Source: an alpha proteobacterium BAL199 (lineage in GTDB: Bacteria > Pseudomonadota > Alphaproteobacteria > Thalassobaculales > Thalassobaculaceae). Taken from it: 64,000 nt of DNA. The stretch is taken from the NCBI GenBank assembly GCA_000171835.1, contig ABHC01000002.1, forward strand, positions 310,001 through 374,000, given 5' to 3'. The position numbers and the translations under genes are program-made. Positions 17,677-34,907 of the stretch are shown here, piece after piece. Below the pieces are notes generated by a model, which was not told where the DNA came from, did no database searches, and was given only the letters and a program-made list of their open reading frames with translations. Position 1 is the stretch's first letter. Every line of letters begins with the position of its first letter.

Positions 17677-20559
17677 CTACGCCGACTTGCGGGCGGGGGC
17701 GGCCGCCTGCTTCAGATAGCGGGCGAGGTATTGGCCGGTGTAGCTGCCCTGGGTCGATGCGACCTCCTCAGGTGTACCGCTGGCGACGATATAGCCGCCG
17801 CCGTCGCCGCCTTCCGGCCCCAGATCGATGATGTGATCGGCGGTCTTGATGACCTCCAAATTGTGCTCGATCACGATTACCGTGTTGCCCTGCTCGACCA
17901 GGGCCTGCAGCACTTCCAGAAGCTTGCGGACGTCCTCGAAATGCAGGCCGGTGGTCGGCTCGTCCAGGATATAGACGGTCCGCCCGGTGGCCCGGCGTGA
18001 CAGTTCCTTGGCCAGCTTCACGCGCTGGGCCTCGCCGCCGGACAGGGTGGTGGCCGGCTGGCCCACCTTGACGTAGCCGAGGCCGACCCGCTCCAAGGTC
18101 TCCAGCTTGTCGCGGATCGACGGGACCGCCTTGAAGAACTTGGCCCCTTCTTCGACGGTCATGTCCAGAACATCGGCGATCGACTTGTCGCGGAACCGGA
18201 TCTCCAGGGTTTCCCGGTTGTAGCGGTGGCCCTTGCAGACATCGCACTGCACGTAGACGTCCGGCAGGAAGTGCATCTCGATCTTGATGACGCCGTCGCC
18301 CTGGCACGCCTCGCAGCGCCCGCCCTTGACGTTGAACGAGAACCGGCCGGGCGCGTAGCCGCGGGCCTGGGCTTCGGGCAGTCCGGCGAACCAGTCGCGA
18401 ATCGGCGTGAACGCACCGGTGTAGGTCGCCGGGTTCGATCGGGGGGTTCGCCCGATCGGCGACTGGTCGATGTCGACCACCTTGTCGACCTTGTCCAGGC
18501 CGTCCAGCGACTCGAACGGGGCTGCGTGCTCGCGCGCGTTGTGCAGGCGACGAGCCAGCGCTTTCCACAGGGTCTCGATCACCAGGGTCGACTTGCCGCC
18601 GCCGGACACCCCGGTGACGCAGGTGAAGGTGCCGAGCGGAATCGTGACGCTGACATCCTTCAGATTGTTGCCGGTCGCGCCCTTCAGGGTCAGGACGCGA
18701 CCCTTCTTGGCCTTGCGGCGCTGCTTGGGCACGGCGATCTGCCGGAAGCCCGAGAGATATTGGCCGGTCAGGCTTTCCGGCGCCCGCATCACGTCCTCGG
18801 GTGTGCCGCTGGCCACCACGGCGCCGCCATGAACACCTGCGCCCGGACCCATGTCGATCACGTAGTCGGCCTCGCGGATCGCGTCCTCGTCGTGCTCGAC
18901 AACGATCACCGTGTTGCCGAGGTCGCGCAGACGCTTGAGCATGGTCAGCAAGCGGTCATTGTCGCGCTGGTGGAGCCCGATCGACGGCTCGTCGAGCACG
19001 TACAGCACGCCGGTCAGTCCGGAGCCGATCTGCGAAGCGAGCCGGATGCGCTGGCTCTCGCCGCCGGATAGCGAGCCGGAGCCGCGCGACAGGGTCAGGT
19101 ACTCCAGCCCGACATTGTTCAGGAATCCCAGCCGCTCGTTGATTTCCTTGAGAATCCGCTGGGCGATCTCGTGATCCTTCGGGCGCAGCGAACCGTCGAG
19201 CTCCTGGAACCAAGCGACCGCGTTGCCGATCGAGAAATCGGCGACCTGGGAGATCGTCAGTCCGGCGATCTTGACCGCCAGGGCCTCCGGTCGCAGCCGC
19301 TGGCCGTTGCAGACCTCGCACGGTGCCACCGACTGGTACCGGCCCAGTTCCTCGCGCACCCAGGCGCTGTCGGTTTCCCTCCAACGGCGCTGCATGTTCG
19401 GAATGACGCCCTCGAACGGCTTGGTGGTCTTGTACGACCGCAGCCCGTCCTCGAAGGTCATCGTGACCGGATTGTCGCCGGTGCCCTGCAGTACGCCTTG
19501 GCGCGCTTCCTCCGGCAAATCCTGCCAGGGTGTGTCCATCGACACCCCGAAGTGCTTGGCCAGGCTGACCAGGGTCTGGGTGTAGTATTTGGACGAGCTG
19601 GCGGCCCACGGACCGACGGCCCCGCCTTTCAGCGACAGGGTCGGGTTCGGGATTACCAGTTCGGCGTCGAAATACATCCGGGTGCCAAGGCCATCGCAGG
19701 TCGGGCATGCGCCGAACGGGTTGTTGAAGGAGAACAGCCGCGGCTCGATCTCGTCGATGGTGAAGCCGGACACCGGGCAGGCGAACTTGGCCGAGAAGGT
19801 TCGCCGTTCGCCGGAATCGGCCTCGTCGGCGAACAGCAGGCCGTCGGACAGGCCGAGCGCGGTCTCGATCGAATCGGCCAAACGGGTCTGGATGCCGTCG
19901 CGCACCACCAGCCGGTCGACCACCACCTCAATGTCGTGCTTGCGCTTCTTGTCGAGCGCCGGCGCTTCCTCGATCTCCAGCAATTCGCCGTCGATCTTGA
20001 CCCGCTGGAAGCCGCGCTTGCGCAGATCGGCCAGTTCTTTGCGGAACTCGCCTTTCTTGCCGCGGGCGATCGGCGCCAGCAGGTACAGCCGGGTGCCCTC
20101 CGGCAGATCCAGGATGCGGTCGACCATCTGGCTGACCGTCTGGCTTTCGATCGGCAGCCCGGTGGCCGGCGAGTAGGGGATGCCGATCCGCGCGAACAGC
20201 AGGCGCAGATAATCATAGACCTCGGTGACCGTGCCGACCGTTGAGCGTGGGTTACGCGACGTGGTCTTCTGCTCGATCGAGATTGCCGGAGACAGCCCCT
20301 CGATCAGGTCGACGTCCGGCTTCTGCATCAGTTCCAGGAACTGCCGGGCGTAGGCCGACAGGCTCTCCACGTATCGGCGCTGACCCTCGGCGTAGATGGT
20401 GTCGAACGCCAGCGAGGATTTCCCGGATCCGCTAAGCCCAGTCAGCACCGACAGTGCGTTGCGGGGCAGGTCGACGTCGACGTTCTTCAGGTTGTGTTCC
20501 CGGGCTCCCCGGACGCGGATAAAGCGGAGTTCTTTGTCGGACGCTGGGGTTGGCGCCAT
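17677..20559 (-). CDS. uvrA: excinuclease ABC subunit A
   Basis: 960 residues, DNA damage-recognition ATPase of nucleotide excision repair. Two ABC ATPase modules are visible: Walker [16 protein letters not shown] and signature [15 protein letters not shown] in the first, [16 protein letters not shown] and [17 protein letters not shown] in the second. Zinc-binding cysteines occur at CEVCNG and [14 protein letters not shown]. An earlier site reads ACPVSG, with Ser in place of the second Cys, a variant I recall from other alphaproteobacteria. The frame continues upstream to 20667, but the ATG at 20559 gives the family N-terminus ([17 protein letters not shown]). It is divergent from ssb. Confidence 0.97.
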
Positions 20560-20921
20560 GGCCGGCCTCGGTTCGGAATCGGGGAGTGGGTACGACCATC
20601 GAATATAGGGTGCGCAGCGGCGGTATTGCCACCGCGCATGTCCGGCGTGGGTATCGGCTGCTGACAAAGGATGGCGCGGTCTGTGGATAACTCAGGATGT
20701 TTGTGCAGTCGATCCGATTCGATAATCGTTTCGAAGTAGCACCGAGGCATCGATTTCGGTATGCCGGATAACTGCAAAGTCGGTTTCGTCTAATCGGGCT
20801 TGGAAGCGGCCGGTCGATGTGGGATGGTCCGGCAAATCAGAAACGAGCCCGAATGCGCGGGCGATCCGGCGCCGTGGCGCCGCCAGACAACACCCAGTCG
20901 ACGAAAAACGAGAGCGAGACG
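20560..20921. other. uvrA-ssb divergent intergenic region
   Basis: 362 nt without a convincing gene. It must hold the promoters for both uvrA and ssb. A search by eye for the alphaproteobacterial LexA box (GTTC, 7 nt, GTTC) found none. A weak hairpin (GCGGT, 6-nt loop, ACCGC) lies at 20620-20635. Confidence 0.5.
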
Positions 20922-21473
20922 ATGGCCGGCAGCGTCAACAAAGTCATCCTGGTGGGGAACCTCGGCCGCGATCCGGAGGTGCGGACCACCCAGGACGGCA
21001 CCAAGATCGTGAACTTCACCCTGGCGACCTCCGAGAACTGGCGCGACAAGTCGAGCGGCGAGCGGCGCGAGCGCACCGAATGGCACCGGGTGGTGATTTT
21101 CAACGAGAACCTAGCGCGGATCGCCGAGCAGTATCTGCGCAAGGGCAGTTCGGTCTATGTCGAGGGCGCGTTGCAGACCCGCAAATGGACCGACAAGGAT
21201 GGCCAGGAACGCTACACCACCGAAGTGGTGCTGCAGCGCTTCCGCGGCGAGATGACCCTACTCGGCGGTCGTGGTGACGCCGGCGGTGGAGGTGGAGGAG
21301 GCGGTCAAGGTGGTGGCGACTACGACCGCGGCGACGATTACGGTGGCTCGAGCGGCGGTAGTTCGTCCGGCGGCGGCTATGGCGGTGGTTCCTCAAGCGG
21401 CGGCCGTTCCGGTGGCGGCGGTCCGGCCCCGATGGGTGGCCCGTCCGACCTGGACGACGAAATCCCGTTCTGA
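20922..21473 (+). CDS. ssb: single-stranded DNA-binding protein
   Basis: 183 residues. The N-terminal OB-fold begins [17 protein letters not shown] and includes [14 protein letters not shown]; a Gly/Ser-rich linker of about 55 residues leads to the acidic C-terminal tip DDEIPF that recruits repair and replication proteins. The open frame extends upstream to 20817, but ATG 20922 gives the canonical start. It is divergent from uvrA, a common pairing that allows co-regulation in DNA damage. Confidence 0.97.
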
Positions 21474-21591
21474 GGAGAGTTGTCCGATTGCAGGGTACCG
21501 GGCCACGAAGAGTGCATACCGGTTCAATCGGTGCTTGCGCCGGTAGTGTAATCTGGCATCAAGATCGATCTACCAGTGGATTTTTGGCGTG

Positions 21592-21601
21592 TCGCTAGCG
21601 A
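21592..21601. repeat. perfect 10-bp palindrome upstream of the glycosyltransferase gene
   Basis: TCGCTAGCGA at 21592-21601 is a perfect palindrome 27 nt before the ATG at 21629, followed by CCCCTCGGGG, a second short symmetric element. It could be an operator for the following three-gene unit; no binding protein is suggested by neighbours. Confidence 0.3.
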
Positions 21602-21628
21602 GGCCCCTCGGGGTGAGCGTCCGGCAGA

Positions 21629-22903
21629 ATGAATGTGAGACCTTTTCCTGCGCCATCTCCGTTCCCGCGGCAAGATGCCAAGCGGATCGCGATCCTGTGC
21701 CCGCGGGGGATCGACAATGTCCTGAACGCAGAGACGCAAGCGATTGTCGAGGGGCTCGCATACTACAATGTATGGTCGGAGGTTTTTGATCTCTGGGAGT
21801 CAAGAGAGGTCGGGGTTCGGCAGCTTCTGACCGCCCAATATGACGCAGTGTATGCGGTGGTCGGCTCGCAACTGGTGCAGGGGCCGGACCGCTGGAACAC
21901 GGATGTGCTGGAACTTCTCGACTCGCCGCTGCTGTTGCGCCTGGCGGATCCGCCGTTTACCCGTCGGTACCTCAGTGCGATTGAGCCGTTTCGATACGAC
22001 ACGAATGTGAGTTGTCGCGACCTCCATTCTGCCGGGTTCCTGCAGAAGGTCGGGATCGCCCAATCCAACATTCACTACCTCCCGGGGCGGTTCAACGGCG
22101 ACCGGATTGATCAAGCCGCTGCCCGCGTCACGCTGGCGGATCGGGATGTGCCGTTTATCTACGTGGCTACGGTCGAGAGTATCAATGCGATCGAGGCCTA
22201 CGCCCGACAGATCCTCCCGGACCGCCTCGATGTCGTCGTTGCGCTGTCCGACGCACTGCTGACCGAGGCATCGCTTCCTGCCTGGCAGGTTGCCGAGGAG
22301 GTCTACAGCAGTCTCGGGAATGATCTGGTTCCGTATCGCGGACTGGGACGCGGGCTGCTTGATCTCGCCAATCGTCACGCAAACGCGCGGTTTCGGAACA
22401 CATTGATCGAACGGCTTGCTCGGTTCGATGGCGTCCTGGTGCTCGACAGGAACTACGAACCGCCAAGGTCACGTTCCGGCTGGCGTGCCAGGGTTCTTGG
22501 TCCGGCACGGCAGGACGATGCCGTGAAGCTAATGCAGCGCAGCCGCATTGTGGTGGCGACTCCACCGAACTTCTGCGTCGGCGCGGTGAGCGAGCGCGTC
22601 TACTGGGCAATGGCCGCTGGAGCCGTGTCCCTGGCGTTGCGCACTCCGGCAATGGACCGCCACTTCGATGTGGGTCGGGACTATCGTTCCTACGACCGAG
22701 CCTTCACCGGCTTGGAGGAAGCCCTCACGACCGCTTCAGAGAGGCCCGGTGACCTGCAGGCCGTAGCAGACAGCGGTCGACTGCAGGTCCACGCGGCGTT
22801 CGCGCACGTTCCCAATGTCCGGGAACTGTTCCGCCCATTGCTCGACATCGGTCAGCCCAACGCGAACGTCGCATCGACCCGGTCAATGGGAGGTGCGGCA
22901 TGA
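21629..22903 (+). CDS. putative CgeB-like glycosyltransferase (GT-B type)
   Basis: 424 residues. The N-terminal half starts with a Rossmann-like strand (KRIAILCPRGID) and has no clear motif. The C-terminal part resembles the nucleotide-sugar-binding half of CgeB/GT1-type enzymes: LMQRSRIVVATPPN, then RVYWAMAAGAVSLALRTPAMDRHF, where an Arg-x-x-x-Ala-x-x-x-Gly pattern precedes an acidic or His position. Sugar and acceptor are unknown. The stop overlaps the ATP-grasp gene (ATGA). Codon use is less biased than in housekeeping neighbours, consistent with accessory status. Alternative: an unrelated Rossmann-fold protein; the glycosyltransferase call is moderate. Confidence 0.55.
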   Translation: MNVRPFPAPSPFPRQDAKRIAILCPRGIDNVLNAETQAIVEGLAYYNVWSEVFDLWESREVGVRQLLTAQYDAVYAVVGSQLVQGPDRWNTDVLELLDSPLLLRLADPPFTRRYLSAIEPFRYDTNVSCRDLHSAGFLQKVGIAQSNIHYLPGRFNGDRIDQAAARVTLADRDVPFIYVATVESINAIEAYARQILPDRLDVVVALSDALLTEASLPAWQVAEEVYSSLGNDLVPYRGLGRGLLDLANRHANARFRNTLIERLARFDGVLVLDRNYEPPRSRSGWRARVLGPARQDDAVKLMQRSRIVVATPPNFCVGAVSERVYWAMAAGAVSLALRTPAMDRHFDVGRDYRSYDRAFTGLEEALTTASERPGDLQAVADSGRLQVHAAFAHVPNVRELFRPLLDIGQPNANVASTRSMGGAA

Positions 22904-23985
22904 GCGATGCTCCCTCAACACGCTCAGTGGCTGACGGCAAGCCGGTGGTACTCATGATTTCAACCGGCGGGGGGGTGTCAGAAGCAATTCTCGACTGCTT
23001 GGCGGCATATCGTGACCGTTTGACAATCGTTGGGACCACCACCGATCCGACGGCAATCGGCGCTTCTGACTGTGATGTCTGCGTCCCAGTGGCGCCGGTC
23101 ACCGTTGAGGATGAGTTCATTCGCGACATCGGCGAGGTGCTTCAGGTATTCCGGCCGCAGATCGCATTTCCATGCCGGGACGCCGATCTGGTTGGATTGG
23201 CACGACTCAAGACATCCCGATCGGAAGGCGCCGAGGCGCTATTGGTCGGCTCGATGGCCTTGGCGACAGCCATGAACGACAAGTTGCCGATGGTGGCCTT
23301 CGCGCGGCGCTGCGGTCTGCCATTCGCATCGACTGCGCACACCGAGGTCGAGGCGCTGGATCTCGTTCGCCGCCACGGGTTCCCACTGATCGCAAAGCCG
23401 CGGCAGGGATCGGGTAGTAAGGGTGTGTACGTGCTGCTGAGCGACAGCCACCTTGAGAGTTGCCTCAACCGAGGCGGGTTTGTCTTTCAGCCGTATATTG
23501 ACCCTCCGGCCGACCTGATTGAACGATTGCCCGACACCCGGCTGGGCCTGCCCTTCGAGCAATCCGGAGGGCTCGACAGGTTCGTTGCGATACGCGGCCT
23601 TTCTGGCCGATCCGGCGAACTGCTCAACGCAATCAAGGTTGACGTCGTCAATCAGTTCGGCCGGCCATTCCGATTGACGCGCCGTCCGTTGGATGCGGTG
23701 GACAGCCAGATCGCAGAGGCGGTGGCCGGTACACTGTTTGAGGAAGATTACGTGGGAGCGTTCGCCTTGCAGGGCCGAGTGGACCGGACAGGAACACTGA
23801 CGTATTTTGAAATGCTGACTCGTATTGGTGGCGGGACGGCCGGCTTTGTCCCTCTTGGCTGCAATCAGCCACGATTGCTCGTGGAGATGTTTGCCGGCAT
23901 CGAATTGCCGGAGACGACCGCTCAGGCCTCCGTGGTCGAGTGGCGGAGCGTGCCGCGACCAAGGGCGGAGCGGAGCACGACATGA
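22900..23985 (+). CDS. ATP-grasp domain protein, putative carboxylate-amine ligase
   Basis: 361 residues. An N-terminal preATP-grasp domain (VVLMISTGGGVSEAILD) is followed by the ATP-binding subdomain HGFPLIAKPRQGSGSKGVYVL, the usual Lys and Gly-rich loop, and a C-terminal metal-site strand YFEMLTRIGGG where an Asn or Glu coordinating Mg is expected. Such enzymes join a carboxylate to an amine via an acyl phosphate. It is coupled by 4-nt overlaps to the glycosyltransferase upstream and the DegT-type enzyme downstream, suggesting a joint product, for example an amino sugar carrying an amino-acid group (inference). Confidence 0.75.
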   Translation: MSDAPSTRSVADGKPVVLMISTGGGVSEAILDCLAAYRDRLTIVGTTTDPTAIGASDCDVCVPVAPVTVEDEFIRDIGEVLQVFRPQIAFPCRDADLVGLARLKTSRSEGAEALLVGSMALATAMNDKLPMVAFARRCGLPFASTAHTEVEALDLVRRHGFPLIAKPRQGSGSKGVYVLLSDSHLESCLNRGGFVFQPYIDPPADLIERLPDTRLGLPFEQSGGLDRFVAIRGLSGRSGELLNAIKVDVVNQFGRPFRLTRRPLDAVDSQIAEAVAGTLFEEDYVGAFALQGRVDRTGTLTYFEMLTRIGGGTAGFVPLGCNQPRLLVEMFAGIELPETTAQASVVEWRSVPRPRAERSTT

Positions 23986-25151
23986 GTATCCTGCCCATGC
24001 CCGCGCTGGAGGTGGCGGCCGGTGCTGTATCGGGTGTTCCATCGGCGTGGACGGTGCCGTTGTTCATTCCGTCGCTACCAGCGTTCGACGTCTATCAGCA
24101 GAGACTCCAACAGGTTTCCGCATCCGGGACCTTCACCAATTTCGGACCGATGCTCCGGGCGTTCGAGATGGCATTGGCGGAAGGGTTAGGGGTTTCGCCG
24201 ACGCGGGTCGTAGGGGTGTCGAGTGCGACGGCGGGACTGACCTGCGCCCTGCTGGCCGTGGCCGAGCGGGGTGGACATTGCATCATGCCAGCGTGGACGC
24301 ACAGCGCCACACCATCCGCTGCGCGGCGCGCCGGCCTTGAACCATGGTTTCTCGATGTTGACCTAGAGACATGGCAGCTCGATCCGACAGACGTTGAAGA
24401 GCGCATCTCGCTCTCCGAGGCGGCCAGGGTTGCTGCCGTCGTCTTAGTCTCGCCGTTCGGTGCACGGATCGATGTGCCGGAATGGGAGGCGTTTGCCGAT
24501 CGCACCGGTGTTCCGGTCCTGGTCGATGCCGCTGCCGGATTTGATACCTGGCAGGACTCTCGGTTGACTAGCGTCGTCAGCTTTCACGCCACCAAAGGGT
24601 TCGGCATTGGCGAAGGGGGGGCGGTTCTTGCTCCAGACGATTCGACCGGACTGCGGATCAGAATGGCTACCAGTTTAGGCATGGATAGTAACCGCGTCGC
24701 CGTTGTCGACGGCATGAACGCCAAGCTCGATGAATTCCGGTCCGCGATCGGCTTGGCGGCGTTGGACACCTGGCAAGACGTGCGTGCGGCAATTCTGGAG
24801 CGCAGCCGCGCGTATTTCGTTGCGCTGCATCGCTCGGGCCTTTCGTTCCGTCGACCATACGGCCTTGAGGACGTCGCCAACTCCACATACCCGATCGCTC
24901 TGTCAGGTCCGCATGCCGTGGATATGATAGAGGCGCTGGCTCAGCGTGGTGTGCACGCCCGCCGCTGGTGGGGCGACGGCTGCCATCGTGTGCCTGTCTT
25001 CGTATCGTGTCCGTGCGAGGGGGTGCCGGTAACCGACGCCTTAGCGGCTCGAGTGATCGGATTGCCGCTCTATGCGACCGTGCCGCTGGCCGCAATCGAG
25101 TACGTCGTTTCGTGCCTAGAAGAAATCGGCCGAGAGTATGAGCATCGGTGA
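23982..25151 (+). CDS. DegT/DnrJ/EryC1/StrS-type PLP-dependent enzyme
   Basis: 389 residues. The fold type I pattern is visible: GVSSATAGLTCALLAV binds the phosphate, PVLVDAAAGFDTW carries the Asp that pairs with the pyridine nitrogen, and SFHATKGFGIGEGGAV contains the Schiff-base Lys. The family mostly aminates keto sugars; a minority dehydrate. The ATG overlaps the ATP-grasp stop (ATGA); an upstream ATG at 23940 is in frame but inside that gene. As last gene of the overlapping unit, it probably makes the amino sugar or amine used by the ATP-grasp enzyme (inference). Confidence 0.82.
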   Translation: MSILPMPALEVAAGAVSGVPSAWTVPLFIPSLPAFDVYQQRLQQVSASGTFTNFGPMLRAFEMALAEGLGVSPTRVVGVSSATAGLTCALLAVAERGGHCIMPAWTHSATPSAARRAGLEPWFLDVDLETWQLDPTDVEERISLSEAARVAAVVLVSPFGARIDVPEWEAFADRTGVPVLVDAAAGFDTWQDSRLTSVVSFHATKGFGIGEGGAVLAPDDSTGLRIRMATSLGMDSNRVAVVDGMNAKLDEFRSAIGLAALDTWQDVRAAILERSRAYFVALHRSGLSFRRPYGLEDVANSTYPIALSGPHAVDMIEALAQRGVHARRWWGDGCHRVPVFVSCPCEGVPVTDALAARVIGLPLYATVPLAAIEYVVSCLEEIGREYEHR

Positions 25152-25224
25152 CTGTTGCACTGGGCCGGATCGCCGGACCTGCGTCACTCTCTGCAATCTC
25201 TGAGATCAAATTCAAGGTCCGTTG

Positions 25225-26070
25225 ATGCCTGACAACACGCCTTATTTCGATGCCAACCGGATGCATTGGGACGAGTTGGTGGGGATCCATCTCGGTACGA
25301 CGGGGTCCGATGGCTACAACGTCGCGGCGCTGAAGCGCGGCACGCGGACCCTGCACGCTGTCGAGGAGGCCGAGATCGGGTCGGTCGACGGGTTGGATGT
25401 GTTGCACCTGCAGTGCCATTTCGGGGTCGACAGCCTGATCCTCGCGCAGCGGGGCGCTCGGGTTATCGGACTGGATTACTCGCCGGCGGCGATTGCGGCG
25501 GCGCGCGGGCTGGCGGCCGAGACCGGGCTGGACGCCCGGTTCGTCGAGGGCAATGTCTACGACGCACCGAGGCTGATCGACGGACGGTTCGATCTGGTGT
25601 TCGTCACCTGGGGCACGATCTGTTGGCTGCCCGATCTGCCGGCCTGGGCCGGGGTGGTGGCGCATTTCCTGAAGCCGGGCGGCCGGTTCTATTTCTGCGA
25701 CGCCCACCCGGCAGCCCGTGTATTTGATGACTCTGCGACAGCCGCGGCATTGCCGCTCGGCACCCTGCGCGTCCACTATCCATACTTCCACCGCGCCGAA
25801 CCGACAGCGAACACCGCGAGCGTCGACTACGCCGATCCGACAGCAGAAATCCGCAACCAGCGGACCTATGAGTGGGAGCACAGCGTGTCGGACATCGTGA
25901 ACGCGGTGATCGGTGCCGGCTTGCAACTCGACTGGCTGCACGAGCACGATGAGATTGCCTGGAATCTCCTGCCGATTCTGGTGCCGGGAGGGCAGGGTCA
26001 GTACCGATGGCCTGACGGGTTCATGCCTAAGTTGCCGCTCAGCCTGTCGTTGTCGGCCCGCAAACCGTAA
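25225..26070 (+). CDS. class I SAM-dependent methyltransferase
   Basis: 281 residues. Motif I is VLHLQCHFGVDSLILAQRGA, followed by VIGLDYSPAAIAAAR and, at motif IV, FDLVFVTWGTICWL. FLKPGGRFYFCDAHP is the post-motif typical of UbiE/COQ5-like methyltransferases. The substrate is unknown. An in-frame TTG directly precedes the ATG at 25225. It starts 73 nt after the DegT-type gene; its base composition is closer to the chromosomal average, so membership in that unit is uncertain. It converges with the PKHD hydroxylase gene. Confidence 0.82.
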   Translation: MPDNTPYFDANRMHWDELVGIHLGTTGSDGYNVAALKRGTRTLHAVEEAEIGSVDGLDVLHLQCHFGVDSLILAQRGARVIGLDYSPAAIAAARGLAAETGLDARFVEGNVYDAPRLIDGRFDLVFVTWGTICWLPDLPAWAGVVAHFLKPGGRFYFCDAHPAARVFDDSATAAALPLGTLRVHYPYFHRAEPTANTASVDYADPTAEIRNQRTYEWEHSVSDIVNAVIGAGLQLDWLHEHDEIAWNLLPILVPGGQGQYRWPDGFMPKLPLSLSLSARKP

Positions 26071-26079
26071 GAGTCGTCG

Positions 26080-26796
26080 TCAAGCGGTATGGCGCTTGAC
26101 GACATTGCTGCGCACCTTCTCAAGCTTTGTAACAACCGACTCGCGGATCTCCGGGTCGCAGGCGCCGTCGCGGGTCAATACGCTCATCACCTGGAGCAGG
26201 TCAGCGTTGATCTGGCGGGTGCCGACGTCAGCGATCCGGCTCTCGATCCAGATGACAGCGACCAGCCGTTCGCCGGCTGTTACTTCAGCAACCCGATGAA
26301 TGGCGTTGGTGGCGTAGAGAACGGCACCTCCGGCGGCCATCTTGAAGGTTGGCGCGTAGGGCATATCGCTGTCGACCACCAACTCGCCGCCTTGGTAGCT
26401 GTCCGGCTCGGTCAGGAAAATCGTCATCGACAGGTCGGAGCGCATCTCCTCCGGCGAACCGCGGAACATTACCGCACTGTCCATGTGGTCACGGTAGCCG
26501 CCGCCCGGTCCGGTGCGTGAGAACAGGAACGGGCTCCACCGCCGCGGGTCGCACACATGCCGGAACGCCAGGGTCTCGTTGGTCAGCGGGCCGCGAAGAT
26601 ACGCCGAGACCTTGTCCGACAACTCCTGACGCAATGGCGAGTCGGCGGCGATCTCGTGGTTACGTTTCTTGGTGCCGTCACGCCCCACGGTTTGCTGGCC
26701 GTCGACCCAGGGCGCACCCTCGGCCTGCAGCGCGGCACGAAGCTCGGCGACCAGTCCGGGCGCCAGCAGGTTTCGGATTGGGTAGACCTGGGCCAT
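26080..26796 (-). CDS. PKHD-type 2-oxoglutarate/Fe(II)-dependent hydroxylase (PiuC/YbiX family)
   Basis: 238 residues. The iron facial triad is visible as H104 and D106 in GYRDHMDSAVM and H167 in NAIHRVAEV, with R177 placed to bind 2-oxoglutarate. The N-terminal WVDGQQTVG motif is typical of the PiuC/YbiX family, which often sits near TonB-dependent siderophore receptors; none is seen here. The substrate is unknown. A decayed copy of the 5' end of a related gene lies upstream at 26956-27081 on the same strand. Confidence 0.9.
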   Translation of the reverse strand: MAQVYPIRNLLAPGLVAELRAALQAEGAPWVDGQQTVGRDGTKKRNHEIAADSPLRQELSDKVSAYLRGPLTNETLAFRHVCDPRRWSPFLFSRTGPGGGYRDHMDSAVMFRGSPEEMRSDLSMTIFLTEPDSYQGGELVVDSDMPYAPTFKMAAGGAVLYATNAIHRVAEVTAGERLVAVIWIESRIADVGTRQINADLLQVMSVLTRDGACDPEIRESVVTKLEKVRSNVVKRHTA

Positions 26797-27333
26797 CGCC
26801 AGCCTTGCCTCCGGTGAAAGGCCATCGACGGCCGGTTCGCGATGGTATCGGCCGACGTTGCGTTCGACCAGCGTTCAAGGGTCGTCAGTTGGTCAGCCGC
26901 TTGGTCAAAAATTGCTGCGGATCCTTCCCAGCTTGATCATCAGCTACGGCTTGGAACGCATCTCGCCTACATCTCCGCCAACCGTGCCTCGGCCATCAGC
27001 CCGGTCCGTGGAAGCGCCCTACAAGGCGTCTCGAACCTCGACGATGAGCGGCTCCGGAAGCAAATTGGGAATCGGATAGACGTAGGGCACGAGCACCTCC
27101 ACAGATGGTGTTCGACCCTCGTCAGCCTGACTGACTTCTATTGTATTTGACAGCTCCCCGCCAGACTCACGGGCCAATCGAAGACGACCTGCTCAGACGT
27201 CAAGCCTTCGGCACTGCAACATTGCCGCATGGGTGCCGTTCTGCTAAGTTTTCATGAAGCATAGCCGCGCCCGATTCGGCGCCGCAAAGGCCATTCCCGG
27301 CCCCTTGCAGCCACCTGCTCCGGAACCCCTCGG
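26797..27333. other. 537-nt region between hydroxylase and gyrA
   Basis: No intact gene is seen. It contains the hydroxylase relic and, on the right, the upstream region of gyrA, which must hold its promoter; no convincing -35/-10 pair was found. A 102-codon plus-strand open frame at 26842-27150 runs antisense to the relic and is probably not coding. Confidence 0.5.
26956..27081 (-). pseudogene. decayed N-terminal fragment of a second PKHD-type hydroxylase gene
   Basis: Translating the minus strand from 27081 to 26956 gives 42 codons that align without gaps to residues 4-45 of the intact hydroxylase at 26080-26796. Shared residues include VYPI-NLL, the L..E.R.AL pattern, then DG..TVG.D and a final Arg. 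A TAG stop (27019-27021) interrupts the frame, and further stops follow downstream. No start codon of good quality or iron-binding part remains. The nucleotide sequences differ clearly, so this is an old paralogue rather than a recent tandem duplication. Confidence 0.6.
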
Positions 27334-30117
27334 TTGTCCGACATCTCATCTACTCATCACGACATCGCCCCGGTCTCCATCGAAGACGAGATGCGGCGTT
27401 CGTACCTCGATTACGCCATGAGCGTGATCGTGTCGCGTGCGCTGCCCGACGTCCGAGACGGCCTCAAACCGGTACACCGCCGCATCCTCTACGCCATGAA
27501 GGTCGGCGGTTACGACTGGACGCGGCCATACCGTAAATCGGCGCGCATCGTCGGCGACGTGATGGGTCAGTACCACCCGCATGGCGACAGCGCGATCTAC
27601 GACGCCATGGTCCGGATGGCGCAGGACTTCTCGATGCGTCTGCCGCTGGTCGACGGCCAGGGCAATTTCGGCTCGATGGACGGCGATCCGCCGGCGGCCA
27701 TGCGCTACACCGAGGCGCGACTGGCCAAGGCGGCTGAAGGCCTGTTGCGCGACATCGACAAGGAAACCGTCGACTACATCCCGAACTACGACGAGACGAC
27801 GGAAGAACCGTCGGTTCTTCCGGCCGAGTACCCGAACCTGCTGGTCAACGGCGCCGGCGGCATCGCGGTCGGCATGGCGACCAACATTCCGCCGCACAAT
27901 CTCGGCGAAGTGGTCGATGCCTGCCTGGCGATGCTGGACAATCCTGGCATCACCATTGACGAGCTGATCGCCCTGGTTCCGGGCCCTGACTTCCCGACCG
28001 GCGGGCTGATTCTTGGCCGATCCGGGATCCGCGAGGCCTATCACACCGGCCGCGGTTCGGTAGTCATGCGCGGTCGGGCCGAGATCGAGGAGATCCGCAA
28101 GGACCGCTTCGCGATCGTCGTTACCGAGATCCCGTATCAGGTCAACAAATCGAAGCTGATGGAGCGGATCGGCGAGGTCGTCCGCGACAAGACGGTCGAA
28201 GGCATCTCCGATCTGCGCGACGAAAGCGACCGCGACGGCGTGCGCGTGGTGGTCGAACTGAAGCGCGACGCGATCGGCGAAGTCGTGCTGAACCAGCTCT
28301 ACCGCTACACCCAGCTGCAGACCAGTTTCGGCGTCAACATGCTGGCGCTGAACCGCGGGCGCCCCGTGCAGATGAACCTGCGCGACGTGATCTTCGCGTT
28401 CGTCGAGTTCCGCGAGGAGGTGATCACCCGTCGGACCCGGTTCCTGCTGCACAAGGCACGGGAACGCGCTCACGTGCTGGCCGGGTTGATGGTCGCAATC
28501 AACAATCTCGACGCGGTGATCGCGATGATCCGCTCGGCGCCGGATGCCGGCGAGGCCCGACGCAAGCTGTGCGCGGCAGCCTGGCCGGCGACCGACGTCA
28601 TCGATTTCATCGCGATTATCGACGATCCGGGGCACCGGGTGACCGACGAGGGCACCTACCAGCTGTCTGACGCACAGGCTCGCGCGATCCTGGACCTGCG
28701 GCTGCAACGCCTGACCGGCATGGAGCGATCCAAGCTGGTCGATGAGGCGACGGACATTGCCGCCCGGATCAAGGACTACCTGGACATCCTGACGTCACGA
28801 CCGCGCCTGATGGGCGTGTTGCGCGACGAGTTGCTGCAGACCCGTGAAGCCTGGGCGAACGACCGCCGCACCGAGATCATGGAAAGCGAGTTCGAGCACG
28901 ACATCGAGGACCTGATCGCGCGCGAGGACATGGTCGTCACGGTCAGTTACTCCGGCTACATCAAGCGGGTGCCGCTAGCGACCTACCGGGCCCAGAAGCG
29001 TGGCGGCAAGGGCCGCGCCGGCATGGCGACCCGCGACGAGGATTGGGTGCACCGTCTGTACGTGGCGAACAGCCACTCGCCGATCCTATTCTTCACCTCG
29101 CGCGGCCAAGTCTACCAGTTGAAAACCTACCGGTTGCCGGAAGGCACGCCGCAGTCGCGCGGGCGGCCGATGGTCAATTTGCTGCCGCTGGAAGAAGGCG
29201 AATGGATCCAGACCGTCATGCCGATGCCGGCCGACGAGTCGAGCTGGGATGGTCTGCACGTGATGTTCGCGACCGCAGCCGGCACGATCCGACGCAACGC
29301 GCTCAGCGACTTCACCAACATCAACCGCGCCGGCAAGCGCGCTATGAAGCTCGACGAGGGCGACCGCCTGATCGCGGTGATGCCGTGCAACGAGGGCGAC
29401 GACGTTCTGCTGGCGGCCCGCTCGGGCAAGGCGATCCGCTTCCAGGTTGCCGATGTCCGGCTGTTCCGTGGCCGTGATTCCCTGGGCGTCCGCGGCATCC
29501 GGCTGGCCAAGGGGGACGAGGTCGTCTCGATGTCGATCCTGCATCACGTCGACTATGAGAGCGTCGACGGCGAGCAGAATGAACGCGATGTATACTTACG
29601 CCAGGCCGCCTGGATCCGGCGCGGCAGCGGCGAGGGGGACGAGGACGCCTCGGCTCCGGACGTCATGCTGCGCGAAGACCGCTTCATCGCTCTCGGCGCG
29701 GCCGAAGAGTTCGTGCTGTCGGTCACCGAGAAGGGCTACGGTAAGCGGACGTCGGCGCACGAGTACCGTGTCACCGGTCGTGGCGGCCAAGGCATTGCCT
29801 CGATGGACGTGACGGCCAAGAACGGCCCGGTGGTCACCGCTTTCCCGGTAACGCCGACCGACCAGATCATGCTGGTTACCGACGGCGGTCAGATCATCCG
29901 TTGCCCGGTCGACGATATTCGGGTGGCCGCCCGCAAGACGCAGGGCGTGGTGCTGTTCCGGGTCGGCGAGGATGAGAAGGTGGTGTCGGTTTCCCTGGTG
30001 GGCGAAAACGGCGACGACGACAATGTCGAAGTTGCTGACGAGGCCACTGATGCGGCAACCGGCGACGGGCCGACGGAAGCCGGACCCGACGAGGAGCAGG
30101 GGGACGCGACAGAATGA
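27334..30117 (+). CDS. gyrA: DNA gyrase subunit A
   Basis: 927 residues. The breakage-reunion domain begins [20 protein letters not shown]; the catalytic Tyr is Y125 in [10 protein letters not shown]. The quinolone-resistance region [12 protein letters not shown] has Ser86 and Asp90, the residues usual in sensitive strains. The GyrA box appears as QKRGGKG at the start of the C-terminal beta-pinwheel, which carries a moderate insertion around residues 745-785. The acidic tail ends in DEEQGDATE. The only in-frame start giving the family N-terminus is TTG 27334. The stop overlaps coaD (ATGA). Confidence 0.97.
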
Positions 30118-31699: not shown

Positions 31700-32869
31700 C
31701 TATAGCGCGTTGCGCCGTTCCACCAGAACGGCTTCAGCCAAGGCGTCAATCTCGCTGGTTTGGTTATAGACTTGGCCGGACACGCGCGCCCACAAACGGC
31801 CGGCCAGCGCGTTGATCGGTACCTGAATCCGGTATTCGTCGAGCAGTCGACGTCGCAGTTCCAGGCCGTCGGCCTGGGTGGTGCCGAGACCTTCCGGTAG
31901 GCGCACAGTGACCATGGATCCAGTGAGCGCCGGCGGAGACCCAACTTCGGTATCCCAGGCGTCGGCCAGCCTCTGCCCAGCCTCGATTGCGAAACGGTGA
32001 TTGTGCTCGCGAACGCGTTTGGCGCCGAAGCCGGCGAGAAATGCCAGGGCATCCGGCAGGGCGAGTTGCGAGGAGGCGTCGCGGGTTCCGACCCAGTCGA
32101 ACTCGGCGACGAAACCCTGACCGAAGCCGTGGCTGATCACCGTTGGATGCAAACGGCCGCGAACCGCGTCGGCCGCCCACAGGAACGCACAACCCTTCGG
32201 GGCGAACAGCCATTTGTGGCAGTTTCCGGTGTACCAATCGGCGCCGAGCGTCGACAGGTCGAGCGGAAGCATCCCAGGGGCATGGGCGCCGTCGACCAGC
32301 GCTAGAGCACCGGCGTCCTTCACCGCCGCGATCATACGCGCGACCGGAAGCACGACGGCAGTGGGCGAGGTGACATGGTCGATCACCGCCATCCGCGTCC
32401 GCTTGCTTATGCCGGACGCGAACGCCTCGACGATGCTGTCGTCGGAGTACACCGGAAACGGCAGGTCGACCTGAACGACGACGGCACCGCTGCGCGCCGC
32501 GACCCAGCGCACCGCGTTCTTGACGGCGTTGTAGGTCTGGTCGGTGATCAGGATCTCGTCGCCGGGCTTGAACGTCTCCGACAGCAGGACAGCGTTCACC
32601 GCCTGGGTTGCGTTCTCCACCATCGCGACTGCCCGACCGTCGACTCCGATGAGAGCGGACAACCGCTCCGCCGCAACCCGCAGGCCAGGCCGGAATTCCC
32701 GCTCCATGAACCGGCTCGGTTCGGCCTCCAAGCGCTCCTGCCAACGGCGCTGCGCCAGCATCACCTGTTTCGGCGTGGCACCGTAGGAACCATGATTCAG
32801 ATAGATGGCACCGTCTTCGAGCTGGAACAGCCGGCGGACAGGCGAGCCGAAGGCGGGAAGGTCTGACAT
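31700..32869 (-). CDS. class V aminotransferase family, isopenicillin-N epimerase-like PLP enzyme
   Basis: 389 residues, fold type I. Family signs are the N-terminal IYLNHGSYGATPKQVM, the VENATQAVNAVLLS helix, VDGAHAPGMLPLDL with the cofactor Asp, and the Schiff-base Lys in YTGNCHKWLFAPKGCAFLW. Such proteins include isopenicillin-N epimerases, cysteine desulfurase-like enzymes and others, so substrate prediction is not safe. It is the last of two minus-strand genes; the upstream one is the interrupted carbamoyltransferase, 37 nt away. Confidence 0.85.
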   Translation of the reverse strand: MSDLPAFGSPVRRLFQLEDGAIYLNHGSYGATPKQVMLAQRRWQERLEAEPSRFMEREFRPGLRVAAERLSALIGVDGRAVAMVENATQAVNAVLLSETFKPGDEILITDQTYNAVKNAVRWVAARSGAVVVQVDLPFPVYSDDSIVEAFASGISKRTRMAVIDHVTSPTAVVLPVARMIAAVKDAGALALVDGAHAPGMLPLDLSTLGADWYTGNCHKWLFAPKGCAFLWAADAVRGRLHPTVISHGFGQGFVAEFDWVGTRDASSQLALPDALAFLAGFGAKRVREHNHRFAIEAGQRLADAWDTEVGSPPALTGSMVTVRLPEGLGTTQADGLELRRRLLDEYRIQVPINALAGRLWARVSGQVYNQTSEIDALAEAVLVERRNAL

Positions 32870-32906
32870 GGCCGGATGGTGACGCGATTTAAGACGGCGC
32901 GCCAGA

Positions 32907-34907
32907 TCACTCTTGGTGTTCGGCTCGCGTCACCCGAACGCCGTCCAGATATACCGCGTCGATCGTTGAGGACCGCAGAAACCGGAGGGCATCGGCCGGC
33001 GATTCAACGATCGGCTCTGCCGGTCCATTGAACGAGGTGTTCAGGACCATCGGCGTGCCAGTTTCCCGATGGAAAGCGTCCACCACCTGATGAAAGACTC
33101 CGCAACTCGCATCCACGGTCTGGATCCGGGAAGAGCCGTCGACATGCGTGATCGCCGGTACCGTGGAGGAGCGCACCCGTGCCGTGAACAGCATGAATGG
33201 TGATGGATCTGGCGCTCCGTCGAACCAGTCGGAGGCGTGCTCGCGAAGCACCGCCGGGGCGAATGGCCGCCAGTACTCCCGAGACTTCAACTCGTTGACC
33301 CGTCGCCACTGGGTGTCGGGCCTCGGGTCGGCCAGAATGGAGCGATGCCCTAGGGCACGCGGCCCTATCTCGCTGCGTCCTTCGAACCAGCCGATGATTT
33401 TGCCGGAGGCCAGATCCGCTGCCGCCGCCGCTGCGGGACAGGCCGGGCGAAGTTGGCTCACGGTGCCACCGCAATCAAGCACCGCCGTGTCGACGTCCTG
33501 GGCCGAATAGGCGACCCCCTGATAGGCGAGTTCAGTCGAGGTTGATGAGAAGGACGCGCGCGGCCGGCCAAGCACGTCGTGCAGCAGAGCCAGTGCAGCG
33601 CCGGCACCCAGTCCGGAGTCGTCACAGGCTGGCGGAACGAACACCTTCTCATATCCGCAGGTGGCCAAGACGCGTGTGTTGGTGGGGCAGTTCAAAGCGC
33701 CGCCGCCACCAAGCGACAAGTGAAGACTCTCGAGCCCATTGTCCCGGAGAGCGTCCGCAAGCGTGGTGACGTCGTTGATGGCACACGCTTCGAACACAGC
33801 TTGTGCAGTCGATGCCACGTCCACCTCGACACGTCGCAGGTGCTCGGCGCCATAGGCATCCGGCAGATGGTGTTGTGTTGGGGCCTTCGGATCCGAATAC
33901 AGGCTCGAAGCAAGTTGTTGGCTGCGTGCCGTTAGCTTGGCGAGCACCGCAAACCGGTCGGACTTGTTTCCGTGAGCATAGGCTTCACCGAAGACCTCGT
34001 AGGCATTCCCGACGAACTCGGGGCTGTCGAAGACCGGTTGCCCAAAGGGTGCCAAGCCCATCAGTTTACCCGCGCCGCCGCCGTGCCCGAGGTTGAACGC
34101 TTCGGCAACACGTTGATAGAGATGCCCATGGTAGGCGTAGTTGGGTCCCAGAGGGATGATCCGGGTTCCCTCTCCGTAGGCAAAGAGGCCGCCGAGATAG
34201 CCGAGTTCTGGATTCCGGACGTCTCCATTATCCAATGTGTAAACTGCTCCGCTCTCCTGATCAGACTGGTAGAATGACAAGGCGGCATGAGCCAGGTGGT
34301 GTGGAACTATGAGGCCGGGTTTCGCCTGGCCAAACAACGTGACTTGGACCGGTTGATAGCCAAATCGGACGGTCCGGAACTGATCGACTTCGGTCGCCCA
34401 TCCCGCAATATCAGAGCGTTGGAATGGATGCGACTATCGCTTGGGCGCGTAGGACCACTCCATGTTGGCAAGCACGCCCCGATCAAGATCCAGCGCCGTC
34501 AGATCATCGACCAGATATTCGCTCCAGCGAGCAGTGGGAATCTGGTCAAGCCGGCGTACCGCGCTGGCTTGACGACGTCGAATCTGGGCTTGCCCGTTCG
34601 CTTGGCCCTTTTGCTCGTCAGTCGAGAAGCCGAAGGCATTCACCTCGGGATCATCCAGTTTGAACGAGAATGCGTCTGGATCTACGAAGATGAAGGGCCA
34701 GGATTGAGCCGAGGCGATTGCTACCGAATCAACATCAGTCCAAGACAGGCCATGTCTGCGAAGCGATTCGTCGATAAACTCGGCGGTCAACAGAGCGCAT
34801 CGTTTCTTTCGGGCGAACCGTTCGCGAAGCTGAATGCCGCGAATCTTGCCGTCCTCGACGATTGCGACACCGGCGTCGTGAGCCATTGAGAGCCCGAGGA
34901 CGATCAT
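32907..34907 (-). pseudogene. NodU/CmcH-type carbamoyltransferase interrupted by one in-frame TAG
   Basis: From ATG 34907 the frame runs 157 codons (MIVLGLSMAHDAGVAIVEDG) to TAG at 34434-34436, then continues in the same frame for 508 codons to 32907. The bridge codons after the TAG (TEVDQFRTVRFGYQP) read like normal protein and lead into the conserved HHLAHA motif at about 203-208; GPRALGHRSILADPR and the NTSFNG end are also intact. Without the TAG the product would be 666 residues, a full N-(YrdC-like plus Kae1-like) carbamoyltransferase that uses carbamoyl phosphate. The downstream part could only be restarted at TTG 34337. A real nonsense mutation or a sequencing error would explain it; readthrough is possible but unsupported. 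Confidence 0.85.

Follow-up and report, generated by a model that had tools for sequence, protein, structure and literature searches.

A three-gene islet encoding a CgeB-like glycosyltransferase, an ATP-grasp ligase and a DegT aminotransferase at a conserved locus of alpha proteobacterium BAL199

Genes of the islet

The window analysed here, the whole stretch of 64,000 nucleotides from alpha proteobacterium BAL199 (contig ABHC01000002.1, positions 310,001 to 374,000), contains an islet of three genes which encode a CgeB-like glycosyltransferase (GT), an ATP-grasp carboxylate-amine ligase and a DegT-family sugar aminotransferase (Table 1). The three reading frames are intact and overlapping. 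Both joints are ATGA overlaps, the GT/ATP-grasp joint at 22900 and the ATP-grasp/DegT joint at 23982. The list of open reading frames (ORFs) extends the DegT frame upstream to a GTG at 23940, and the ATG at 23982 is the start adopted here. A preliminary description of this DNA, made from the sequence alone, had given the same coordinates and overlaps, and these are verified.

Table 1. Genes of the islet and its conserved flanks, in window coordinates
Feature	Position	Strand	Remarks
CgeB-like glycosyltransferase (PF13524)	21629-22903	+	424 aa; proposed transferase for the modified sugar
ATP-grasp carboxylate-amine ligase	22900-23985	+	Proposed N-acylating enzyme
DegT-family sugar aminotransferase	23982-25151	+	PF01041; DesI is the nearest curated model
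Whole inserted islet, ssb stop to methyltransferase start	21474-25221		3.75 kb; filled by the trio
uvrA	17677-20667	-	Conserved left flank, outside the unit; synteny with relatives
ssb	20817-21473	+	Conserved left flank, outside the unit; synteny with relatives
S-adenosylmethionine methyltransferase	25222-26070	+	Conserved right flank, outside the unit; same block in 8/8 relatives without the trio
gyrA	27334-30117	+	Conserved right flank, outside the unit; synteny with relatives

Insertion at a conserved locus

The site was compared in eight relatives (L110-L117), two from the same genus and six others from the same family; a gyrase probe matched 32 of the 36 family genomes, the window's own counted. 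Genome samples here and below are partial, and gene starts in relatives were taken from a simple ORF caller. The uvrA, ssb, methyltransferase and gyrA genes are all present at the site in the eight relatives fetched, and none of the eight has the trio there. The methyltransferase adjoins ssb in these genomes, or lies less than 3 kb away in one, and in seven of the eight the interval between the two has no other gene; the spacing is 8 nt in the genus-mate G001 and 5 nt in G002. Because the trio is absent and the two flanking genes are near-adjacent in relatives, the region 21474-25221 is an insertion at a conserved locus. In one relative (G022, L116:3434-6260) a HAD hydrolase, a family III coenzyme A (CoA)-transferase and a LysR regulator occupy the same ssb-methyltransferase junction, and this spot therefore holds different DNA in different lineages.

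The conserved block keeps the methyltransferase in all eight trio-less relatives, and the methyltransferase is therefore a core gene and is ruled out as a fourth member of the unit. This contradicts the preliminary description, in which the methyltransferase, placed at 25225, was thought to add possibly to the product. The housekeeping character it gave to the flanks is borne out for uvrA, ssb and gyrA by the same synteny.

A scan of 20900-26900 for repeats of at least 14 nt found six short direct families and four inverted pairs, none of which joins the two edges of the islet, and none of the window's four tRNA genes is located at these edges. A phage or defence origin of the islet is not supported by PHROGs, PADLOC or viral contig scans. 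The sole trio match in PHROGs is that of DegT, to an aminotransferase family (50.4 bits), and the sole PADLOC match is that of the methyltransferase (mad2, 48 bits). The viral contig scans yielded 10 DegT relatives, 21-33% identical, and confirmed no ATP-grasp or GT relative. Even if the mechanism proposed below is wrong in detail, the site shows cleanly how a conserved locus can carry a strain-specific islet.

Codon usage was compared among the 45 ORFs of the window that have 150 aa or more and pass a coding filter. The G+C content at third codon positions (GC3) is 0.69-0.71 in the trio and 0.79-0.87 in uvrA, ssb, the methyltransferase, PKHD and gyrA. The effective codon numbers are 51.3 for DegT (counted from 23940) and 49.8 and 49.3 for the other two ORFs, which place the three at ranks 1, 3 and 4 of 45. 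Codon use less biased than that of neighbours had been pointed out before, and GC3 and the effective codon numbers agree with it. Since the codon bias is weaker than in its neighbours, the trio was probably acquired horizontally, as a short piece of foreign DNA that entered between two conserved genes. Composition would be no proof of this by itself, because other window ORFs are equally unbiased (e.g. 32907-34337, rank 2) or have a lower GC3.

The aminotransferase

The DegT protein matches PF01041 with 196.2 bits, well above the cut-off of 19.8. Its Lys205, which stands in an H-x-T-K sequence and is the same in all 13 aligned rows, is presumably the pyridoxal phosphate-binding lysine of the active-site motif. 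The best NCBIfam matches are DesI (TIGR04427, nearly full length) and PseC (94 bits), neither of which reaches its cut-off. DesI is the best of these, but with 154.4 bits against a cut-off of 650 the window protein is not a member of the DesI equivalog. The best PDB matches are 3ju7 (5.9e-52) and 2po3 (1.3e-36); the protein is thus nearer to 3ju7, a putative aminotransferase, than to 2po3, which is listed as a '4-dehydrase' and which we take to be DesI.

DegT matches are present in nine of the 36 family genomes at 1e-20 (the window's own counted), and eight of the 10 named genome loci matched are in Alphaproteobacteria. Two relatives, one in Kiloniellaceae (L046; 6930-10407) and one in G367 (L033; 3381-6794), have rmlA on one side and a flagellin gene on the other, and this suggests flagellin glycosylation in those relatives. 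A third (L031, in G344) has rmlA, rmlB and a sulfotransferase gene nearby, so that rmlA adjoins or is near three DegT relatives, and rmlB is present also in one. Other relatives have acyltransferase genes nearby (L118, L108) or are surrounded by genes for GT61 and polysaccharide pyruvyl transferase (L120); such neighbours include a hexapeptide acyltransferase gene in A. brasilense and an acetyltransferase gene and a GT61 gene in Acuticoccus. A GNAT-type (PF13480) ORF is near DegT in G001 (23.9 bits, cut-off 22) and in G030 (36 bits).

BAL199 has its own rmlA, rmlD and rmlB genes, which match TIGR01207, TIGR01214 and TIGR01181 with 502, 304 and 483 bits, all above cut-off, and which lie side by side on contig C66 (L138). 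Therefore dTDP-4-keto-6-deoxyglucose (dTDP, deoxythymidine diphosphate) should be available; this is also the substrate of VioA, an aminotransferase that is considered below. Family and gene context point to 4-amination of dTDP-4-keto-6-deoxyglucose as the predicted activity of the window DegT.

That DesI is the nearest curated model bears on one alternative, namely that what the trio makes is a natural product, small and soluble, and not a surface glycan, since DesI belongs to an antibiotic sugar pathway. However, the three genes take up the islet, with no space left for those of a carrier, a transporter or a regulator, and some DegT relatives are accompanied by rml, flagellin, GT61 or polysaccharide pyruvyl transferase genes, and we regard a soluble product as improbable. 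The preliminary description had allowed for both an aminated, acylated sugar and a small glycosylated metabolite. The former is now the best supported, by DegT relatives beside rmlA/rmlB, flagellin and acyltransferase genes, but no support was found for the latter.

In a quick tree of 41 DegT proteins, the window protein groups with those of Azospirillum TSA2s, G264, G344 and G001, with a value of 87 in the Shimodaira-Hasegawa-like approximate likelihood ratio test (SH-aLRT), which is below the starred level, and its end branch is long (1.26). Two contigs of the BAL199 genome (L143:6346-9447 and L144:6332-8169) seemingly carry near-identical copies of another DegT and its neighbour, as judged from the first 60 residues.

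The glycosyltransferase and the ATP-grasp protein

The GT matches PF13524 above cut-off (42.6 bits, cut-off 25), in residues 284-396 only. No PDB sequence match was found for it, and a plasmid search with the window GT gave no match. Its single-sequence structure model has a mean predicted local distance difference test (pLDDT) value of 37.7 and is unusable for assessing a GT-B fold. GT matches occur in two of 146 genomes at E <= 1e-8 (the window's own counted), and distant homologues are found in G001 (L106, L107), Azospirillum (L009) and G251 (L039).

The second protein is, by its sequence, assignable to the ATP-grasp superfamily only. The PRK12767 proteins are the nearest family, both by model (NF009402, PRK12767, carbamoyl phosphate synthase-like) and by a profile built from the window protein and four other family members, which matches PDB 2pn1 at 1.4e-29; but the window protein is below the NF009402 cut-off (73.2 bits vs 218) and the Asn of its metal motif is replaced. 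It keeps the DK and KPRxGxGS motifs, which we take to represent the ATP-binding Lys residues and the Gly-rich loop. The Lys, Gly-loop and Arg positions are kept, and the middle region is divergent. The structure model (mean pLDDT 36.9) is unusable.

Close matches to the ATP-grasp protein are rare. Of 36 genomes from the order, every one in the same family, one has a match at 1e-10; a class sample has matches in three of 385 at 1e-8 and a phylum sample in two of 398 at 1e-10, with the window's own genome counted in each. A profile search matched 161 of the 385 genomes, and surroundings were fetched for the better matches only (to about 75 bits), weaker ones being presumed biotin carboxylases and the like. 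The five ATP-grasp family matches on contigs C201, C21, C96, C40 and C134 of the draft genome G344 (L044, L099-L102), four of which are cut by contig ends, are copies or pieces of one repeated gene.

The trio in other genomes

One other whole trio was found among the surroundings viewed, on plasmid p2 of Azospirillum sp. TSA2s (L009). As in the window, genes for a GT, an ATP-grasp protein and a DegT protein are adjacent, here amid other glycosyltransferase genes, and identities to the window proteins are 33% over 125 aa, 31% and 44%, respectively. The Azospirillum locus differs in that DegT is on the opposite strand (convergent), the GT is only distantly similar, and the ATP-grasp protein (L009:7998-9800) has a second, degenerate ATP-grasp-like module, which sets it apart from that of the window. 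Partial combinations also occur. The GT adjoins DegT at another locus in the genus-mate G001, with the GNAT-type match on the other side of DegT, and in G251 (L039) a PF13524 glycosyltransferase adjoins DegT. Plasmid searches matched 61 records with the ATP-grasp protein and 68 with DegT, of which the surroundings of two and four, respectively, were viewed (one of the latter without annotation), and because so few were viewed, further trios there are possible.

Genome-level co-occurrence of the closest ATP-grasp and DegT subfamilies is not convincing. The class sample has the DegT match (E <= 1e-30) in 20 genomes and both this and one of the three ATP-grasp matches in two, including the window's own. 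Co-occurrence in other genomes had been put forward in the preliminary description as a check on the unit, and the outcome is weak yet not absent, given the whole trio in one other record.

Relation to known systems

The viosamine island of Pseudomonas syringae consists of seven ORFs between two conserved genes (PMC3927599). From mutants, the authors infer that VioA aminates, that VioB with an acyl carrier protein (ACP), VioS and VioR N-acylates, and that VioT transfers the sugar; the mutants also suggest that VioT needs the N-acyl group (PMC3927599). Homologues of vioA, vioB and vioT occur in P. aeruginosa PAK. As far as the available parts of this source go, the likeness is that aminotransferase, N-acylation and glycosyltransferase steps are encoded together between conserved genes, the acylating role in the window being a proposed one. 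The differences are seven genes vs three, VioB with ACP, VioS and VioR vs an ATP-grasp protein, and a VioT of 1,173 aa vs a CgeB-like GT of 424 aa. The window unit moreover has no methyltransferase of its own.

In Clostridium acetobutylicum, the operon CA_C2186-CA_C2199 for a modified (surface) carbohydrate is listed with an ATP-grasp 'amino acyl ligase' and a DUF3880 glycosyltransferase (PMC4000134). It thus resembles the islet in having an ATP-grasp amino acyl ligase together with a glycosyltransferase and sugar enzymes, but it is a large operon with a neuraminic-acid synthase gene, and its gene table, the part of the source at hand, has no DegT (PMC4000134). In the SAGA linker sugar of Porphyromonas gingivalis (Wbp/Vim pathway), serine is amide-linked to an amino sugar, and WbpE is in the pathway (PMC13086638). 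An amide between an amino acid and an amino sugar may also be what the window enzymes make, but the SAGA pathway uses WbpA/B/E/D, VimE and VimA, and 'ATP-grasp' is absent from the text of this source as available (PMC13086638).

Earlier, no described pathway could be matched to the three genes. The logic of amination, N-acylation and transfer does resemble that of the viosamine island (PMC3927599), as far as the source extends, but an ATP-grasp enzyme in the acylation position was not found, and among open-licence PMC papers, covered by titles and the starts of abstracts, the trio is described in none found. What appears to be new here is a unit of three genes in which acylation would fall to an ATP-grasp ligase.

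Proposed function and alternatives

We think it fairly likely that the trio is an acquired minimal glycan-decoration cassette, whereby an aminated, N-acylated sugar is put on a surface glycan or protein. In a first step, DegT would aminate an NDP-4-keto-6-deoxyhexose (NDP, nucleoside diphosphate), most likely dTDP-4-keto-6-deoxyglucose supplied by the host RmlA and RmlB, and, to judge from family and context, the product would be a dTDP-4-amino-4,6-dideoxyhexose. The ATP-grasp protein may then convert a carboxylic acid, which is perhaps an amino acid, to its acyl phosphate and join it to the sugar amine. Finally, the CgeB-like GT would move the N-acylated sugar to a surface glycan, a lipid-linked sugar or a flagellin encoded elsewhere. 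Context supports amination and transfer fairly well; the N-acylation role of the ATP-grasp protein and the acceptor are what we infer.

A more specific form of this proposal is tentative. A free acid or amino acid would be ligated directly to the amine of the NDP-4-amino-4,6-dideoxy sugar, and neither CoA nor ACP would be needed to cap flagellin or surface glycan with aminoacyl sugars; the ligase would be a self-contained, swappable substitute for an acyltransferase of the VioB type. If the cassette functions as proposed, the acylating enzyme of amino-sugar cassettes can be exchanged, be it a hexapeptide acyltransferase, a GNAT or an ATP-grasp ligase, and the aminotransferase and the transferase are retained. 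Such enzyme swapping would partly explain how diverse bacterial surface sugars are, and the islet, small and with three genes, would lend itself to tests of sugar acylation by a ligase.

Several findings weigh against a decoration cassette. There is no acceptor gene within the islet. Some DegT relatives have neighbours without a glycan link (a HhH-GPD protein, a histidine kinase, an acetyl-CoA hydrolase), and five of 20 scanned ORFs neighbouring DegT relatives matched nothing. The ATP-grasp protein stays below every Pfam and NCBIfam cut-off, and its ExN motif, presumably the metal-binding motif, reads EMLTR, with the Glu kept and the Asn replaced by Leu, so that ligase activity may be reduced or absent. 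The same motif reads EIAAR in the Azospirillum protein, DAAAR in L045 and EVGAR in the L-amino-acid ligase 3vot, and since 3vot is also without the Asn, its loss need not mean a loss of activity.

The missing Asn and the divergent middle region, together with the lack of acceptor genes, are what one would expect of a decaying remnant of a larger polysaccharide cluster in which the ATP-grasp protein is already inactive. There is little probability of this, as the three frames are intact and overlapping, the Lys, Gly-loop and Arg positions are kept, and the whole trio is found also on the Azospirillum plasmid.

The association of ATP-grasp and DegT genes has to be weighed as well. Among 23 loci chosen by ATP-grasp match, some of them from one genome, nine have a DegT-superfamily gene in the same fetched stretch, and all nine are among the 15 stretches that are 12 kb or longer. 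For comparison, the background DegT density is six matches above 150 bits in the 6.1 Mb of the BAL199 genome, or about 0.02 per 20 kb; the control loci L110-L117 gave no DegT match, but they represent one housekeeping locus in eight relatives and carry little weight. Two further observations tell against the proposed cassette. The 11 tree-placed DegT proteins, of 12 near other ATP-grasp genes, all fall outside the clade of the window DegT, and the ATP-grasp profile has only two matches, both weak (L048, L052), in 26 loci chosen by DegT, apart from L009, which is common to both searches. Because neighbouring DegT proteins are in another clade and DegT-chosen loci rarely hold an ATP-grasp gene, the association is one of surface-sugar clusters in general, and a specific pairing of window-type ATP-grasp and DegT rests on two loci.

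These data bear on a third alternative, in which DegT and the GT act as in the decoration cassette, but the ATP-grasp protein instead amidates a uronic or aldonic sugar carboxyl or links an amino acid elsewhere on the glycan. ATP-grasp relatives do occur without DegT in the viewed stretch, e.g. on Sinorhizobium meliloti pSymB, where the neighbours are a PHP protein and an oxidoreductase, and 14 of the 23 ATP-grasp loci have no DegT match, eight of these 14 being the stretches shorter than 12 kb. However, the ATP-grasp gene overlaps both of its neighbours by ATGA, and the same trio is present in Azospirillum TSA2s, and a role apart from the sugar amine is thus rather unlikely.

A second gene pair

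On the minus strand of the window, at 31700-34337, a class-V aminotransferase gene adjoins a carbamoyltransferase gene (PF02543/PF16861). The carbamoyltransferase ORF has a codon bias as weak as that of the trio, and the two genes may be a second acquired modification pair.

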